From Candidatus Acidulodesulfobacterium acidiphilum (GTDB lineage Bacteria; SZUA-79; Acidulodesulfobacterales; Acidulodesulfobacteraceae), in the NCBI GenBank assembly GCA_008534395.1, contig SHMQ01000005.1, forward strand, positions 48,851-112,850: a stretch of DNA of 64,000 nt, written 5' to 3'. The notes beneath the pieces were generated by a model. The model saw only the letters and a list, made by a program, of their open reading frames with translations, was not told the origin of the DNA and did not search any database. Positions 14,815 through 60,054 of this stretch are shown here, one piece after another; positions within the stretch are counted from its first letter, which is position 1; each line of letters begins with the position of its first letter. A program made the position numbers and the translations under genes.

Positions 14815-15333
14815 TTATCTCCTGATTATAAACATATTGTAGTTTTTATCGTCTTTTTTGAAGATATAATTTCCATAAAGCCAGTGTCCTTTTTTAATCA
14901 CGACGTAAACGTCTTCGCCTCCGTGAAATACGTTTTCGGAAGAATACGGCAGCACCCATATTTTCTTGATTACCGCAGGCACGTATAGCGGCGGATTATT
15001 GCCTTCGACTTCATATTTAAGCAAGTATTGTCTTACGCTTATATATCCCTTCGCAAATCTTTTTCCTTTAGCCGCAGTTTTATATATCTCCTTGCAAGCA
15101 TTAGTTCCTCGCAAGGATACAGGACAGTTGATTAAATCTCCATGATTTGCTCCCGGCGATTTTATCTGCCCGGTCGATATTTTATAGTTGGTTTCAAGCG
15201 ATGAGCAATTTCCCATGCCAGATTTCGATTCCGGACACGAATAGTTTGAACTATACGGCATAAGCGAACAGCCGGTTAAAACCGCGGAAAATAAAAACGC
15301 CGCGGAAAATAAAAATAAAAGTTTCTTTTTCAC
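14815..15333 (-). CDS. traV: TraV outer-membrane lipoprotein
   Basis: 172-residue lipoprotein: signal segment followed by lipobox AVLTGC with C22 as the lipidated residue, and two further Cys in the first 45 residues (YSCPES, MGNCSS), the layout of TraV, which joins TraK and TraB in the envelope-spanning core. Translation starts at GTG 15333, overlapping the dsbC stop (GTGA) with a GGGAGG ribosome binding site. The C-terminal half (80-172) is basic and beta-rich. Position between traB/dsbC and traC agrees with F-type operons. Confidence 0.8.
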   Translation of the reverse strand: MKKKLLFLFSAAFLFSAVLTGCSLMPYSSNYSCPESKSGMGNCSSLETNYKISTGQIKSPGANHGDLINCPVSLRGTNACKEIYKTAAKGKRFAKGYISVRQYLLKYEVEGNNPPLYVPAVIKKIWVLPYSSENVFHGGEDVYVVIKKGHWLYGNYIFKKDDKNYNMFIIRR

Positions 15334-16148
15334 GGTTGCCTCCCAAAAAGTTCATGGTCTAATTTGGCCACGTTTACGCCTTTAACCCCTAAATCTTGTA
15401 AAATAAGGCCTATATTGATGCCGTCGACCACCTTGCCGTTTATGATAAAAAACGGAACTCCGAATATGGAGTATTCGTTCGCAAGCCCGGTATTATAGGA
15501 AAGCCTTTCTACCGCTTTCTTAGACACTTTAATTTTAGGGGCTATATTCCCAAACTTAGTCTGATATATATGCCCCACCATTATTTTATTTAGAAGCGAT
15601 AACCGATATGATAAAGGTCTGCCGTCGGCCTTAGTAAAATAATATAGCGTCATGGCGGTAGAATGAGGATGTATTGAAGGTTGTGGAATTAAAAAAATAT
15701 ACCTCGTAACTTTTTTTGCTATTTCAGGCCTCGAAAAGAATTTTTCCGCGACGCGACAGAACGGGCAATCTATATTGGCGAATTCTATGACCTTAACCGG
15801 ACCGTCTCCTACTTTGATAGCCTTTTTTAAATCGACTCCCTTTTCTATATCTTCCGCTTTAGACTGCTGCATCTTCAGCCTTGCTTCCTGCGTAAGATTT
15901 TTGCCTGCAGCGGTCCACATTTGACCAAGAAGGATTATTTTATCTTTAGGAAAAACATATATTATCTGACCGTTAGATATCACCGCCCCATAAAGTCCTT
16001 TTACCGGCGTATGAAAAGTACCGGACATTTTTATCTTCGGCAAAATGGACTGGACGGCCGGATTAACCGCTTGTCCGGCAAAAACGCTGCCGGTTGAAAA
16101 CAATACCGCAGTTAAAGCAAGAATAATTAAAAGTCCTCTGAAACGCAT
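15330..16148 (-). CDS. dsbC: DsbC-like disulfide isomerase of the transfer operon
   Basis: 272 residues from ATG 16148, which has AGGAGG upstream; a longer frame reaching 16226 overlaps traB and has a basic tail unlikely to be used. Signal peptide about 1-24, DsbC-type N-terminal dimerisation region, then a thioredoxin fold with the active site C128-P-F-C131 and a cis-Pro region (IFGVPFFIING, about 225). It would reshuffle disulfides in TraH and other Cys-containing components in the periplasm. F plasmid uses TrbB for this; DsbC homologues at this place are known in related systems such as SXT/R391 elements. Confidence 0.88.
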   Translation of the reverse strand: MRFRGLLIILALTAVLFSTGSVFAGQAVNPAVQSILPKIKMSGTFHTPVKGLYGAVISNGQIIYVFPKDKIILLGQMWTAAGKNLTQEARLKMQQSKAEDIEKGVDLKKAIKVGDGPVKVIEFANIDCPFCRVAEKFFSRPEIAKKVTRYIFLIPQPSIHPHSTAMTLYYFTKADGRPLSYRLSLLNKIMVGHIYQTKFGNIAPKIKVSKKAVERLSYNTGLANEYSIFGVPFFIINGKVVDGINIGLILQDLGVKGVNVAKLDHELFGRQP

Positions 16149-16150
16149 GA

Positions 16151-17437
16151 TTATTTTCCTCCTTTCATTTTGGTTGTTTTGCTGTTGCCGCCGACGCCCC
16201 TGACGTTTGGCGTATCTTTTATCCAAAAGCCTTTAGTAATTACAATGGTGAGTTTTCTTCCTGCGCCTACTTCAACGACCGGAACCATCGAATCCGCCAT
16301 TTTAATATAAAACTGGGAAAGATTATTGGCGGCGTTGGTTAATCCCTGACCGACGGCGGCCTGCCCTATATTGCCCGGATTAATCGTTGACGTAGAACCC
16401 AAAGCGCTCATGGAATAAGTCATCGACTGTTGAGATATTATATTACCGAATCCCTGCAGCAATCCTGCTGCGAATTCCCTTGCGAGTATAGCTCCTTGTT
16501 TCGTTACGACCTTACCCCTGAGACCTACCTTGCCGTGCTGCCCTACTATGTAACCGTGCAAAGGAACGTCCACGTGATAGACCCCGCCCCTTACGACGCA
16601 CGATAGGTTTACCGCACGTATATAAACCCTTTCGCTCGAAAGCGAACCATAGCCCTCGGCAATAATAAAACATCCCTTAAGCGACGAACGAAACTCGTTA
16701 GGTAAGAACGAGAGATCGGTAAGCCTTATCAGCGCAGGATAAGGATTAGATTTTCCCTTCATGCTGGCGGGAGCGTCCATGCCGTTAAGGAGCGTCGCTT
16801 CTGTAAATGTTCCCGACGGCACGTAATATTCCAAAGTTCTTTTTTTTTTAGATTTTTGCGTAGTCGGAGACGGTTGGCTGTTTAGGATAGTATTAATTGG
16901 ATTATTAAGCGGCACTATCGTAACCGGCGACTGTTTTGCGGAAGAACCCGCAGCCGGAGTATAACCTTTTCCGCCATTAGAAGACCCGGTAAAAGCTAAA
17001 CCTTTTTCCTGCCCGGGTATAGGCGGATAAATGACTTTGTTCCCGCCTTTTTCCCGGCTTTGTTTTATAACCGCCATATCGTGAAGTTCTTTTTGAAATA
17101 CGGCGTTTCGTTTTTTCAATGCTTCTATTTCTTTATTATTTTCTTGTAGTTTAGTCGCTGCGCTGGAAACCCACGCCTGTTTGGATAATTTGTCCGAATT
17201 CACAAGGTTGACCACATTAGGAGATGCTTTTACGATTAAATGCGGTTTGCGGGCGGGCAGTACCACGAAAATAATTACGGCGAATATAGCGCTTAAAACG
17301 AAAAATACGGCGCCGAATATAAACATCTGCCATTGCTTCCTTGTTTTAAATAATGATTTAAATCTACTTATAGGACCAAGTTTGTCCTTTTCTTCTCCTC
17401 CGCCGGCATGCGGATCGAAGTTTAAATCATCTGCCAT
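16151..17437 (-). CDS. traB: TraB/VirB10-type scaffold protein
   Basis: 428 residues: cytoplasmic N-terminus, one membrane helix (about 37-61), a coiled coil (about 93-118), a Pro/Ser-rich stretch (125-200) that can span the periplasm, and a C-terminal beta-barrel domain of the TrbI/VirB10 family from about 210 onward. TraB bridges both membranes and contacts TraK and TraV. The gene overlaps the end of traK by 11 bp. The family assignment is supported by the architecture and by its place between traK and traV. Confidence 0.9.
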   Translation of the reverse strand: MADDLNFDPHAGGGEEKDKLGPISRFKSLFKTRKQWQMFIFGAVFFVLSAIFAVIIFVVLPARKPHLIVKASPNVVNLVNSDKLSKQAWVSSAATKLQENNKEIEALKKRNAVFQKELHDMAVIKQSREKGGNKVIYPPIPGQEKGLAFTGSSNGGKGYTPAAGSSAKQSPVTIVPLNNPINTILNSQPSPTTQKSKKKRTLEYYVPSGTFTEATLLNGMDAPASMKGKSNPYPALIRLTDLSFLPNEFRSSLKGCFIIAEGYGSLSSERVYIRAVNLSCVVRGGVYHVDVPLHGYIVGQHGKVGLRGKVVTKQGAILAREFAAGLLQGFGNIISQQSMTYSMSALGSTSTINPGNIGQAAVGQGLTNAANNLSQFYIKMADSMVPVVEVGAGRKLTIVITKGFWIKDTPNVRGVGGNSKTTKMKGGK

Positions 17438-43258: not shown

Positions 43259-43705
43259 ATGTTTAAAAAAATTTTATGCCCCGTCGATTTCAGCGACACG
43301 TCAATGGATGCCGCAAATAACGCAATTCAATTTGCTTCCGAAATTAAAGCGGAAATAACTTTTGTGCATGTTGTAGATATTCAAACTTTGCAAAATATAG
43401 CGGATTTATCGGGCGGGGGCATAAACGATTTGGATCTTTTAGTCGAAGAAGAAAAACCGGTATTAAGCAAACTGAAAGACGAAGCCGAAAAAAGAGGCGT
43501 AAAAGTTAATACCGTTTTGACGCACGGCGAACCGGTAAACGTAGTTTTAAACGAAATTAAATCAGGAGGATTCGACCTCATAGTTATGGGAACGCACGGG
43601 AAAAAGGGGCTGACAAGGTTGGTTCTAGGTTCTATGGCTGAAAGTATAGTAAGGCAGTCGCAAATTCCGGTACTTTTATATCATTGCACCGGAGAAAAAT
43701 GCTGA
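43259..43705 (+). CDS. uspA: Universal stress protein with ATP-binding motif
   Basis: 148 residues with a complete Usp fold. The ATP-binding motif G-T-H-G-K-K-G-x6-G-S (GTHGKKGLTRLVLGSMAE) lies at about 118-135. It starts with KKILCPVDFSDTS, as in many deltaproteobacterial Usps, and ends near HCTGEKC. AAAGGAGA precedes the ATG and a -35/-10 pair lies upstream. It is transcribed alone, ended by a hairpin at 43781-43818. Confidence 0.93.
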   Translation: MFKKILCPVDFSDTSMDAANNAIQFASEIKAEITFVHVVDIQTLQNIADLSGGGINDLDLLVEEEKPVLSKLKDEAEKRGVKVNTVLTHGEPVNVVLNEIKSGGFDLIVMGTHGKKGLTRLVLGSMAESIVRQSQIPVLLYHCTGEKC

Positions 43706-43865: not shown

Positions 43866-44519
43866 TTATTGCTGATTAGCATACCCTTCCATAACTTTAC
43901 CTAGAAAAACCGATTCTGGAACCGCACCCACAACTTCGGCGGATTCGTTCATTACCGTTTTAGGTACGCTGAAAACCTCATATTTATCTGAAAGATTAGG
44001 AAATTCTTGAATTTCTATTACGTCTGACGTAATATTTTCGTTAGCTATAGCAAAACTGTGCGCAAGAACCGCCGCCGGCGGACAATGAGGTCAGGTAGGA
44101 GTTACAAATACCTGAATATTATACGGCTTTATAATTTCTTTTAATTTTTCGATAGTTTTTTCCGACAAGCCGGTTTCTTTAGTAGAAACATTGATTATGC
44201 CGTTTACTAAAGTCATAAATTCATGGCCTGCCGGCATTCCGTAAAATCTTACTCCGTAATCTTTATCGCCTTCGATAACTATAGCCGGAGTTCTTTTTAT
44301 TCCGTAAAGTTTAACTTTATCGGTATCTTTGTCAAAGTCGTATTCTTCTAAACTTAATTTATCGCTTAATCCCACAACCTCCGCAAGTATATCTTTGACT
44401 TCCTTGCAATAAAGGCAAGCGTCTTCGGCTTTAAAAAAAATTAACTTAACGTTATTTTTTAATTTTTCGTTAAAATCTTTTTTCAGGAACTCGGCATCCT
44501 GTTCGCTTAATAGAGGCAT
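43866..44519 (-). CDS. Selenocysteine-containing protein disulfide oxidoreductase (PDO, two Trx-fold units)
   Basis: 217 residues when UGA at 44091-44093 is read as selenocysteine (U143). The N-terminal unit has C35-L-Y-C38 and cis-Pro in RTPAIVI; the C-terminal unit has U143-P-H-C146 (TPT-U-PHCP), the UxxC form of the CPYC/CPHC active site, followed by FSVPKTV as cis-Pro motif and GAVPESVFL, so a fully sensible PDO/glutaredoxin-like protein. The frame is open to TAA at 43866. A hairpin fitting a bacterial SECIS lies right after the UGA. Annotators would cut it at 142 residues. PDO exchanges disulfides in the cytoplasm; Sec would raise its reducing power. selABCD are not in the window. Confidence 0.9.
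44069..44093 (-). promoter_or_regulatory. Candidate SECIS element directly after UGA
   Basis: On the minus strand, from the UGA the RNA reads 9 bases and then CCGCC-GGC-GGCGG: a 5-bp GC stem with a 3-base apical loop containing G, starting 12 bases and centred about 18 bases after the UGA. Bacterial SECIS hairpins lie within about 15-40 bases and present G in the loop, so spacing and sequence fit. It is inside the coding region, in the PPAAV codons. Confidence 0.7.
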
Positions 44520-44636
44520 TTTTTCTCCTTTTTTTTATTTGCTAAATTTTAATTTATACCTTATATATTATATAATTTTTGATACTTATTTACAAATATT
44601 TATTGATTTTTTTTTATAATATGATATAAATATAAC

Positions 44637-45338
44637 ATGCAGCCAAAATTACATAACTATTGCATAGATAAAACGTTTGAACTTCTTTACAACGATTCTA
44701 AATTAAGCGTTATCGATACCCTTCTCGATAATAGAATTTCCGGCATTAAAGCGGAAGAAAGAATCAATCTTATGCATCACGGCTCATACATAATAGACAG
44801 GCTTGCTATAAAAAAATTAAGGGTTCACTGGTTCGGCGGACACTACCTTTATCCTCATTCGCATGCCGGATATATAAGAGGTTTTTCCGACGCCGGAACA
44901 AAATGCGTTCAGCTTTTTAATATAGCGTTAAAAGATTGGGAGAAAGGCAGATTTAAAAAATCGTTTATAAATCTCGGAGGAGCGGTTCATCTTGTACAGG
45001 ATTTATGCATCCCTTTCCATACTACTAATCTTGCTCTAAAAAAACACGTACTTTTTGAAAGATGGATGTCTTCGCACTATTTGGAAACAGATTTAAAATT
45101 AGAAAAAGGCATATATAAATTTAAACCCCTAAAAGGACATTACAGAGACGCGCATCCTTTCGGATGGGTGGATTATAACGCCCATAATTCTTCGCTTTAT
45201 TTACCCGAATTGCTGTATGCAAAAACTAAATTAGAATATTTTAACGCAATGAACAGAATTTTACCGGAAGCCGTAAAAACTTCGGCAGGTTTTCTGGAAC
45301 TTTTCGCAAATAAAGCCGTGAAACTGCAAAAGAGCTAA
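44637..45338 (+). CDS. Zinc-dependent phospholipase C / S1-P1-like protein
   Basis: 233 residues. All-helical sequence with metal-type histidines: LMHHGS (about 42), HSHAGY (about 78), the signature GGAVHLVQDLCIPFHTTN (about 114-131) typical of bacterial zinc-dependent phospholipase C and S1/P1 nuclease folds. No signal peptide is visible and the N-terminal Trp ligand is not obvious, unlike the secreted enzymes, so this may be a cytoplasmic relative with a different substrate. It is a separate transcript next to the selenoprotein gene. Confidence 0.65.
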   Translation: MQPKLHNYCIDKTFELLYNDSKLSVIDTLLDNRISGIKAEERINLMHHGSYIIDRLAIKKLRVHWFGGHYLYPHSHAGYIRGFSDAGTKCVQLFNIALKDWEKGRFKKSFINLGGAVHLVQDLCIPFHTTNLALKKHVLFERWMSSHYLETDLKLEKGIYKFKPLKGHYRDAHPFGWVDYNAHNSSLYLPELLYAKTKLEYFNAMNRILPEAVKTSAGFLELFANKAVKLQKS

Positions 45339-56070: not shown

Positions 56071-57912
56071 TCAAGCCTTAAGAAGTCCTCTGGATTCTTT
56101 TTTTCTGTCGTTCTCCGTTAATATTTTTTTTCTAAGGCGTATAGATTTAGGCGTAAACTCTACAAGTTCGTCGTCTTCTATGAATTCTAAGGCATATTCT
56201 ATCGACAGCCTTATAGGCGGAGTAAGCGTTATCATTTCGTCGGATGCCTTCGACCTCATATTTGTAAGCTGTTTTTTCTTGCAGGGATTTACCGTTATAT
56301 CTCCGGGCTTGGAATGTATTCCTATTATCATCCCTTCATAAACTTCGTCCTGCGGAGAAACGAAAAGGCTTCCTCTGTCCTGTAGATTATATAAACCGTA
56401 AGAGTTGGCTTCTCCGTTTTCCATGGAAATCATTACTCCGTTTTTCCTGGGGGAAATATCGAAAGCATATTCGTCGAACTTATAAAAATTATGGTTCATC
56501 GTGCCGGTACCTTTAGTCATAGTGAGAAATTCATTATGAAATCCCATTATGCTTCTTGAAGGTATTACAAACTCAAGGTAGGTATTGCCGTTATCGTCCT
56601 TAGTCATATCGAGAAGATTGCCTTTCATGGATGAAAGCCTTTCGAGCACTCCGCCGGTAAATTCGTCTTTTACCGTGATATACAAAAGCTCGTACGGCTC
56701 CATTTTCTTTCCGTCTATCTCTTTTATTACGCCTTTAGGTTTAGAAACGGCAAACTCAAAACCTTCTCTTCTCATTTTTTCGATTAAAATAGAAAGATGA
56801 AGAAGACCTCTGCCGTAAACGTCGAATACCGTTTCGTCTCCTGTTTCGACGACTTTTAATCCGACGTTGTTAGAGACTTCCTTAAACAGCCTTTCCCTTA
56901 ACTGCCTCGTAGTTACCAATTTTCCCTCTTTTCCGCAAAAAGGGCTTTTGTTTACTATGAAGTTAACGAGTATTACAGGTTCGTCTATTTTTATTCTCTG
57001 CAAAGGCGCTATCGGTTTGTCGTTAACTATATAATCTCCGGCATTTACGCCGGTCAAACCTGCTACTAAAGCAATGTCGCCCTCGTTAATTTCATCGGTT
57101 TCCGTTCTTTTTAATCCGTCGAAAAGAAAAATCTTGTTAGGTTTTGTTTTTATCAATTCATCCTTGGCATTATAAAGATAAACCGAATCGTTTACTTTAA
57201 GTTTTCCGGCCTTAACTATGCCGATAGCCGTAGCTCCGAGAAAATCGTCGTGGCCTATGCTCGTGACTAAAAATTCAAGTTCCGGTTTATTAAGTATGGG
57301 CGGATGAGGTATAAAATCTATTATTGCATCGAAAAGTGGATTAAGCTTGTCTTTAAACCTTTCCTCTCCTTGAACTTTTAAATCTTTAATAGCGTAACCT
57401 TCTTTTGCGGAAGCATAAATTACCGGAAAATCTAAATTTACGTTTTCCCCGCCGAGTTCCAAAAAAAGATCGTAAACCATTTCCAGTACTTCTTCCGGTC
57501 TCGCTCCGGGTCTGTCTATTTTATTAATGACAAGAAGTACGTGAAGGTTGTATTCAAAGCATTTTTTAAGAATAAATCTGGTCTGCGGCATAGGTCCGTC
57601 GAAAGCGTCTACTAAAAGCAGAACTCCGTCCACCATTGCAAGCACTCTTTCTACTTCACTGCCGAAATCTCCGTGGCCGGGAGTATCTACTATGTTTATT
57701 CTGTAATCTTTATATTTAATGCCGGTGCATTTCGATAAAATAGTTATTCCTCTTTCTTTTTCTAATTCGTCGCTGTCCATCGCCCTTTCGGAAAGAGCCT
57801 CGAAGTCTCTTTTGCTTATACTTTCCTTTAACATTTTGTCGATAAGAGTCGTTTTACCGTGATCGACGTGGGCAACTACGGCTATATTTCTAATTTTTTC
57901 TTGAAAATTCAA
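56071..57912 (-). CDS. typA: Ribosome-associated GTPase TypA/BipA
   Basis: 613 residues. EF-G-like GTPase: P-loop AHVDHGKT (14-21), DTPGHGDFG (about 76), NKID (about 130), then EF-G domains and the TypA C-terminal domain ending [15 protein letters not shown]. The length and C-terminal sequence separate it from EF-G and LepA. It aids ribosome assembly and stress adaptation. Ribosome binding site GGAGGAT upstream; transcribed alone. Confidence 0.97.
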
Positions 57913-58453: not shown

Positions 58454-59218
58454 TTAACTGCTGTTTTTAACTCCGTATTTCCTTTGACGTACGACTTCAT
58501 ATGCGGCAACCGCAAAACTTACGGATGCGTTAAGGGAATTAACGCCTCGTTCCATCGGAATTTTTAAAATCCTGTCGCAGTTTTCGGCAGTAAGACGCCT
58601 TAAACCGCTTCCTTCGGAACCTACGACTAATGCTAAGGGCAGGTTAAAATCCATATCGTATACAGTATCTTCCGCATCCCCCGAAAGTCCGGCTACCCAT
58701 ATGCCTCTCTTTTTTAAATCCGCTATAGTTCTGGAAATATTCACGACGCGGACCACGGCGACATAAAATAAGGCTCCCTGAGAAACATAAGCCGCCGAAG
58801 AAGTTATACCGACGGAATTTGCCTTAGGTATTATAATTCCGGATACTCCTGCTCCGTTTGCAGTTCTTATTATCGAGCCGAGATTCTGAGGGTCGGTTAT
58901 TTCGTCCAAAATTAGATAAAACGGTTTGCCTGTATTTTGTTCGGATTTATTTAATAAATTTTCATAATCCGATTCGGTATATTCGGCAACGGCGGCTATG
59001 CCCTTTATGAAAGCTTCCTTGCCGAACTCTTGCAGAAAAGAGGCATCTTTTTTTGAATAAATATTTATATTTTTATCTTTTGCGATATTAATAAAGCTTT
59101 TATCCGCTATGCCGCTTTTGTATTTTTTTTCAGTTATATAAACGCTGCCGCCTTTTTTAATACTGCCCGAAAGAATTGCTTCCCTGACCGTATTTACGCC
59201 GTAAACTATTAATTTCAT
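58454..59218 (-). CDS. rlmB: 23S rRNA 2'-O-methyltransferase RlmB-like (SpoU family)
   Basis: 254 residues with an N-terminal L30-like substrate-binding domain (about 1-95) and a C-terminal SPOUT domain. The three motifs are LDEITDPQNLGSIIRTANGAG (about 105-125), GSEGSGLRRL (about 205) and NSLNASVSFAVAAYE (about 228-242). It methylates a guanosine of 23S rRNA or a related tRNA site. Its start overlaps the TGA of pyrF by 4 bp (59215-59218). Confidence 0.93.
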   Translation of the reverse strand: MKLIVYGVNTVREAILSGSIKKGGSVYITEKKYKSGIADKSFINIAKDKNINIYSKKDASFLQEFGKEAFIKGIAAVAEYTESDYENLLNKSEQNTGKPFYLILDEITDPQNLGSIIRTANGAGVSGIIIPKANSVGITSSAAYVSQGALFYVAVVRVVNISRTIADLKKRGIWVAGLSGDAEDTVYDMDFNLPLALVVGSEGSGLRRLTAENCDRILKIPMERGVNSLNASVSFAVAAYEVVRQRKYGVKNSS

Positions 59219-60054
59219 ATTTTTTGCGTCTTGACGTTGTTTTTTATATCGGCATAAATTTTATCGAAAGCATAGGCGGGATCCGCAGCTCCGGTTATTT
59301 CTCTGCCTATTACTATATAATCGGCTCCGGCGTTAAAAGCCTCGGAAGGCGTCATTACTCTTTTCTGGTCGTCTTTGGAATTATTAGCGCAGTTCGTTAT
59401 TTTATTACCGCTTCCGGTTTTCGTTCTTATGCCGGGCGTTAAGGTTTTGAAATCGTTCCCGAACGTTTTTTTTATATTTGACGATTCGTGACCGGAACAC
59501 ACTACGCCGTCCAGTTTTGAAATTTTAGCCAGCATGGCTAAATGAATTGCTAAAGCGGAAGATGCGCTGTTTTTGCTAACTCTGCATTCATTGCCTTTTC
59601 CTTGCATAACTTCTTCATAATCCTTATTATAATCGTAAAAAATCCGATTTATATCGCCGTCCGAAAGGCTGGTCAAAACCGTAACCGCTATAATATCTAT
59701 ATGCCTGCCTGCATCTTCCGATGCTTCGTCTGCCGCTTTTTTTGCGGCGGACATCATTTCCGTTCCACCGGAAGCATGCACGTTTATTATATCTGCGCCT
59801 AATCTACCCGCCGCTTTTACTGCTTTATAAACGGTATTCGGAATATCGTGGTATTTAAGGTCTAAAAAAACTTTACATCCGCGTTCCTTGATAAATTTAA
59901 CGCTTTTTTCTCCGCAAGAAGTAAAGAGTTCGAATCCGACTTTATAAAAAAAAGCTCTTCCTTCAAGTTTATCTAATAAATTTTTTACCGGTTTTAAATC
60001 GCCGTAATCTAAAGCAATTATTATTTTATCGTTGAAATTTACGGAATTCTTCAT
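59215..60054 (-). CDS. pyrF: Orotidine-5'-phosphate decarboxylase
   Basis: 279 residues, TIM barrel. Catalytic triad of the D-x-K-x-x-D motif: D65-L-K67-Y-H-D70; N-terminal IIALDYGDLKPVKNLL, and phosphate-binding GREITGAADP near the end. About 45 residues longer than most (230-240) owing to an insertion near 150-165 (EVMQGKGNECRVSKNS) and a loop near 220-233. Last step of UMP synthesis, so it fits with pyrKD in the same region. ATGA overlap with rlmB. Confidence 0.95.
   Translation of the reverse strand: MKNSVNFNDKIIIALDYGDLKPVKNLLDKLEGRAFFYKVGFELFTSCGEKSVKFIKERGCKVFLDLKYHDIPNTVYKAVKAAGRLGADIINVHASGGTEMMSAAKKAADEASEDAGRHIDIIAVTVLTSLSDGDINRIFYDYNKDYEEVMQGKGNECRVSKNSASSALAIHLAMLAKISKLDGVVCSGHESSNIKKTFGNDFKTLTPGIRTKTGSGNKITNCANNSKDDQKRVMTPSEAFNAGADYIVIGREITGAADPAYAFDKIYADIKNNVKTQKI

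Follow-up and report, generated by a model that had tools for sequence, protein, structure and literature searches.

A predicted selenocysteine codon in the second active site of a two-unit PDO-type disulfide oxidoreductase from Candidatus Acidulodesulfobacterium acidiphilum and relatives in its phylum

The minus strand of the window (the whole 64,000-nt stretch of DNA that was analysed) carries a coding sequence of 217 residues plus stop (44519..43866) with one in-frame TGA. The sequence starts with an ATG at 44519-44517, preceded at a distance of 5 nt by a Shine-Dalgarno-like GGAG (44525..44528), and ends with a TAA at 43868-43866. The TGA lies at codon 143 (44093-44091), with 74 codons between it and the TAA, and under translation table 11 the open reading frame ends there after 142 amino acids (...VFVTPT). 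When the frame is read through, two active-site motifs appear: CLYC (Cys35 and Cys38; 44406..44417), which is not recoded, and U-P-H-C, in which the TGA, predicted to encode selenocysteine (Sec), takes the first place and Cys146 (44082..44084) is the second thiol position. A predicted bacterial SECIS element occupies 44069..44081 on the same strand. The initial annotation had described this frame, with a UGA where the first Cys of a second CxxC motif belongs and a 74-codon continuation to TAA, and all of it was found as described, on the minus strand.

Open reading frames and profile matches place a universal stress protein gene at 43259-43705 and, at 44637-45338, a frame that matches zinc phospholipase C weakly, with a score under the cut-off. 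Both of these neighbours are on the plus strand, so the gene stands alone on the minus strand. A promoter scan around it gave two sites against 5.2 expected, and was not used as evidence. The window was also scanned for other TGA-interrupted frames (at least 60 codons before and at least 40 after the TGA, with at most one overlapping long frame), which listed 12 candidates; as judged by eye, only the gene described here was convincing. A separate minus-strand frame at 15330-16232 contains a CPFC motif and has a TGA at its end; it presumably encodes a DsbC-type exported thiol protein.

The read-through protein scored 268.5 bits against NCBIfam TIGR02187 (PDO_seleno_TRX) over residues 6-211, the curated cut-off of this family being 185 bits. 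The solved PDOs of Pyrococcus (1a8l) and Aquifex (2ywm) were matched by sequence, and in the alignment to P. furiosus PDO (1a8l), which runs along 1-211, the TGA residue stands opposite a Cys. An AF2 model built from a 33-row alignment (pLDDT 94.3) has two thioredoxin-fold units in one chain, with C35LYC38 in the first and U143PHC146 in the second, and superposes on 2ywm, 1a8l and 2ayt with TM scores of 0.94-0.95 (1a8l 0.94). C35, C38, C146, P78 and P186 are invariant across the 33 rows; P78 and P186 we take to be the cis-Pro residues. The protein thus resembles the Pyrococcus furiosus and Aquifex aeolicus PDOs (1a8l, 2ywm, 2ayt; 42% identity) in having two thioredoxin units per chain, and differs from them at the second motif, which in the solved proteins starts with Cys (CPYC in 1a8l, CGYC in 2ywm). 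Relatives outside the phylum that have no TGA likewise carry Cys at this place. The N-terminal domain of AhpF shares the two-unit fold (TM 0.79-0.87), but only at 24-26% identity; the window PDO has no attached reductase domain, and its score against TIGR03140 (AhpF), 80.6 bits, is far below the cut-off of 502.9 bits.

A protein search of 61 genomes returned 30 matches, comprising 23 full-length copies, one partial copy at a contig end and six copies outside the family. All 23 full-length copies belong to one family, share the architecture of the window gene and carry one TGA, while the six copies outside the family are without a stop. In 23 of the 30 phylum genomes a copy exceeds the TIGR02187 cut-off; each of these copies contains a single TGA, and together they represent five of the six genera examined. 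No second, Cys-containing PDO paralogue was found over the same cut-off in these 30 genomes. In the alignment the TGA of all 23 falls on one codon position (143 or 144) and an intact continuation follows it, and these copies form a single clade (support 100/100). A TGT or TGC at 44091-44093, the outcome of resequencing that the initial annotation had named as fatal to its proposal, is therefore very unlikely, the same TGA being present in 22 other genomes. Seven of the 30 phylum genomes have no full-length copy over the cut-off; the copy in G026 is cut at a contig end, and G020 is rated 100% complete, so the gene looks dispensable in the lineage. In one of the copies (L065, from G013) a second TGA is found where relatives end, in addition to that at codon 143; within this one gene UGA would serve both as Sec codon and as stop.

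The candidate SECIS element has a stem of five pairs, CCGCC with GGCGG, around the loop GGC. Nine nucleotides separate the TGA from the stem; the loop lies 14 nt after the end of the TGA or 17 nt from its U. The GC hairpin with a G-containing loop that had been reported earlier is present, but the stated distance of about 18 bases after the UGA agrees with the loop only when counting begins at the T of the TGA. Across the 23 copies, an amino acid with degenerate codons is fully conserved at 47 of the 106 codon positions compared around the TGA, and the codon itself is unchanged as well at just five of the 47. They are consecutive, from +3 to +7 (TGT CCG CCG GCG GCG), and hold the CCGCC-GGC-GGCGG that is the consensus fold of the 23 copies (22 distinct 60-nt sequences). 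Elsewhere in the same genes other codons outnumber those in the block, with CCT used 62 times versus 49 for CCG (Pro), GCC 88, GCA 75 and GCT 67 versus 53 for GCG (Ala), and TGC 34 versus 12 for TGT (Cys). When single 45-nt pieces are folded, the stem is missing from the energy-best fold in two of the 23 copies (L068 and L069). Folding energy was rejected as evidence for the hairpin, because an equal or better fold was obtained in 392 of 2000 synonymous shuffles of the window copy.

The window holds 1321 TGA trinucleotides on its two strands, which were scanned for hairpins at a spacing of 14-37 nt, a lower bound chosen to admit the PDO hairpin. Some hairpin within loose published limits follows 673 of them, whereas only two are followed by a hairpin with at least five G-C pairs, and only one of these two, the PDO TGA, has a loop beginning with GG. 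The hairpin after the PDO TGA is more than chance. The bacterial model given in the legend to Fig. 2 of PMC13188914 allows 16-37 nt from UGA to loop, a loop of 3-9 nt and an upper stem of 4-16 bp, with a G in the first two loop places. The 5-bp stem, the GGC loop and the placement of G lie within this model in 23 of 23 copies, limits that are weak alone, given the 673 of 1321 TGAs above; the spacing, at 14 nt from the end of the UGA or 17 from its U, is the only point that does not clearly fall inside.

The genome encodes the proteins of a Sec pathway, each over its cut-off: selA (C4:73048-74448; 558 bits), selB (C14:45585-46667 and on; 292 bits, or 315 with neighbours, in a frame for a 652-residue protein) and selD (C4:78610-79536; 370 bits with one in-frame TGA). 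The selD TGA (...AHG-U-GCK...) is itself followed by a hairpin, GGTCC-GGA-GGACC, with its loop 17 nt after the TGA; the stem has four G-C pairs and would fail the strict five-pair test used in the window. The initial annotation had staked its proposal on there being sel genes in the genome, selC (tRNA-Sec) among those to look for. The proposal withstood this check for selA, selB and selD, whereas tRNA-Sec is missing from the assembly (2,093,156 bases in 70 contigs), apparently in a contig gap. The Rfam tRNA-Sec model gave 12 matches in this assembly, all below the cut-off, and a pattern search for an unusual tRNA-Sec gave none. Eight of the 12 were checked with ARAGORN and rejected as tRNA-Leu, Ser, Trp or Arg.

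A tRNA-Sec exceeds the cut-off in 25 of the 30 phylum genomes; the five without one are the source genome (G000), G002, G007, G015 and G024. The tRNA-Sec (TCA) of relatives has a tRNA-Ser(GGA) in the same stretch in nine of 14 loci scanned, at a distance of about 130-170 bases in L047, L050 and L054. In the source genome, contig C64 begins (C64:1) inside tRNA-Ser(GGA), and contig C46 ends (C46:13809) at the start of the opposite flank of L054 and L050; the tRNA-Sec of L054 (1501-1595) falls between the parts of that locus matched in the source genome, 1-1300 and 2619-3090. In the comparison with L047, C64 again breaks in the tRNA-Ser, and the other flank matches parts of C22, of which the examined stretch holds no tRNA-Sec nor any other tRNA. 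The missing tRNA-Sec is well, though not perfectly, explained by a gap between the contig ends C64:1 and C46:13809. L050 contains a repeated stretch near the C64/C46 break at tRNA-Ser(GGA), and a repeat of this type may have caused the assembly to fail there. A short repeat of 23-44 bases (L054:2583-2631; C30:96-272 in the source genome) has 26 matches at about 20 places in the genome, several of them on both strands and, on C30, in steps of 38-40 bases.

We regard it as nearly certain that the minus-strand gene at 44519-43866 encodes a two-unit PDO, with the in-frame UGA of U-P-H-C predicted to be decoded as Sec. Insertion of Sec at codon 143 is strongly predicted from the sequence, and the earlier proposal of a PDO-type selenoprotein with UxxC in its second unit is supported by the TIGR02187 score, the alignment to PDOs, the conservation of the UGA, the codon invariance after it, the dN/dS ratios and the fold. 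Compatible with this explanation is a version in which decoding of the UGA as Sec is only partial, giving a 142-residue short form beside the full Sec form in a ratio set by selenium supply. Recoding of UGA in Sec genes is generally incomplete, which speaks for this version; against it, no sequence feature was found that favours a functional short form, a product in which the second unit would be cut off after its first strand, and we consider it decidedly unlikely.

If the UGA were instead a true stop, the gene would make a truncated functional product of 142 residues, and the remainder of the frame would be a decaying remnant or a sequencing error. Proteins of 142 aa are present in databases, making up at least 37 of 120 among the matches listed, but the same UGA and intact continuation recur in 22 other genomes. 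Median dN/dS was 0.057 before the TGA (55 codons) and 0.064 after it (61 codons), from 22 pairs each taken against the window gene and with dS above 1 in many of them, so that the ratios are rough; they point to the same purifying selection on both sides of the TGA. In the AF2 model the second unit has its first strand at E133-139; a stop at codon 143 would come shortly after it, and the product would be expected to lose the rest of that unit. A true stop is thus very improbable, and a pseudogene or sequencing error was rejected on the TGA in 23 of 23 full-length copies together with dN/dS.

Least credible of all is a genome-wide reading of UGA as Trp (or Gly), which would make codon 143 an ordinary sense codon: Trp is printed at the site in at least seven full-length database proteins (P0002-P0008; 69-99% identity) among the matches listed, probably from gene callers run with another genetic code, but outside relatives lacking the TGA, like the solved PDOs, have Cys at the site, the genome carries selA, selB and a selD that itself contains a UGA, and the G013 gene has its additional UGA where relatives end. 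Moreover, the six reading frames of the window contain 40 stop-to-stop frames that reach 200 codons, and UGA terminates six of them, including two at 56071-57912 and 59215-60054 that read as complete genes (TypA-like and PyrF-like, we assume); UGA is therefore a stop by default here.

Outside the phylum the TGA form is the less frequent one. A TIGR02187 member over the cut-off is present in 88 of 386 genomes, namely the 23 phylum genomes, all with TGA, and 65 outside, of which 11 have the TGA form and 54 do not. The suggestion that Sec confined to the second unit is a rarer form found no support, as the TGA lies at the second motif in 12 of 12 TGA-bearing outside PDOs (the 11 over the cut-off and one, from G272, below it). 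In the tree, Cys copies are interspersed with the 11 outside TGA copies, a pattern that takes eight label changes, three of them forced by well-supported branches; bootstrap support had not converged, and the tree contains several long branches. The simplest reading of this pattern would be repeated switching between Cys and Sec within the family, in one direction or the other. Three TGA-bearing outside PDOs, L169 (G314), L170 (G176) and L171 (G272), have the motifs UPYC, UKYC and USYC, and their N-termini look by eye like lipoprotein or export signals, making them possible candidates for exported Sec-PDOs.

In the mechanism that we propose for the Sec-containing PDO, with the ribosome at the UGA the stem-loop would bind SelB loaded with Sec-tRNA-Sec, Sec would enter at codon 143, and translation would continue to the TAA. 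The Sec143/Cys146 pair of the C-terminal unit would then act as a fast thiol/selenol exchange site that reduces protein disulfides, with the CLYC pair of the N-terminal unit as a putative second site, and the protein would be re-reduced by an NADPH thioredoxin reductase encoded elsewhere in the genome. The candidate reductase gene (C7:17990-18883; 372 bits, over its cut-off) is not adjacent to the PDO gene. In flanks of about 1.5 kb, the only distance considered, a thioredoxin reductase gene accompanies PDO at 0 of 23 loci in the phylum and at 11 of 29 distinct outside loci, which include some that are closely related. Archaeal PDOs are reduced by thioredoxin reductase and pass the electrons on to peroxiredoxin and further targets (PMC7278568). 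Because of this precedent and the presence of the reductase gene, the likeliest role for the Sec-PDO, by analogy, would be that of a thioredoxin reductase-fed protein disulfide reductase working through its C-terminal unit.

The Sec form of the PDO family is already known, and the window gene is a further case of it. The family was listed in 2006 as a selenoprotein 'homolog of AhpF, amino-terminal domain' in Carboxydothermus and Symbiobacterium (PMC1794560), both PMC9312934 and PMC13188914 give TIGR02187 as a selenoprotein family with one representative and a UxxC motif, the second of them specifying one Sec, and a TIGR02187 selenoprotein was described in Asgard archaea in 2024 (PMC11227280). 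The known members belong to the family whose curated cut-off the window PDO exceeds, and share with it one Sec in a UxxC motif; in the 12 outside TGA members examined here the TGA lies in the same unit, the second. They differ in coming from Carboxydothermus, Symbiobacterium and Asgard archaea, whereas the window gene belongs to a phylum probably at home in acid mine drainage, in which all full-length copies found carry TGA. New is the fixation of the Sec form throughout a phylum, in all full-length copies recovered, and its appearance in databases as a truncated protein or with Trp.

No paper joining the name of the lineage with selenoprotein or selenocysteine was found in the open literature searched. 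Candidatus Acidulodesulfobacterium (AP4) was recovered from acid mine drainage (PMC6776010, Table 1), which is likely the habitat of the source bacterium; the main text of that paper contains no selenium or selenoprotein words, its sole 'selen' word being an author name. The described phylum members carry cytochrome bd (PMC6776010), and members of the phylum are therefore probably not strict anaerobes.

Database entries give either the 142-residue fragment or Trp at the active site, and work that starts from them would therefore miss the catalytic residue. The frozen block of five codons offers a compact candidate SECIS for testing. Possible but doubtful is a wider reading, in which the Sec-PDO would be a redox hub that defines the lineage, an entire phylum of uncultured acidophiles. 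In this reading, decoding would rely on a minimal SECIS (five G-C pairs and a GGC triloop, placed 14 nt after the UGA), smaller than in the published bacterial model and nearer to the codon, and matched by a GGA hairpin of 5-6 pairs in selD, with the SelB of the phylum recognising a short, lineage-specific class of elements frozen to single synonymous bases. For the family itself, the TGA is mostly absent outside the phylum, yet within the phylum the TGA form is fixed in the full-length copies found.
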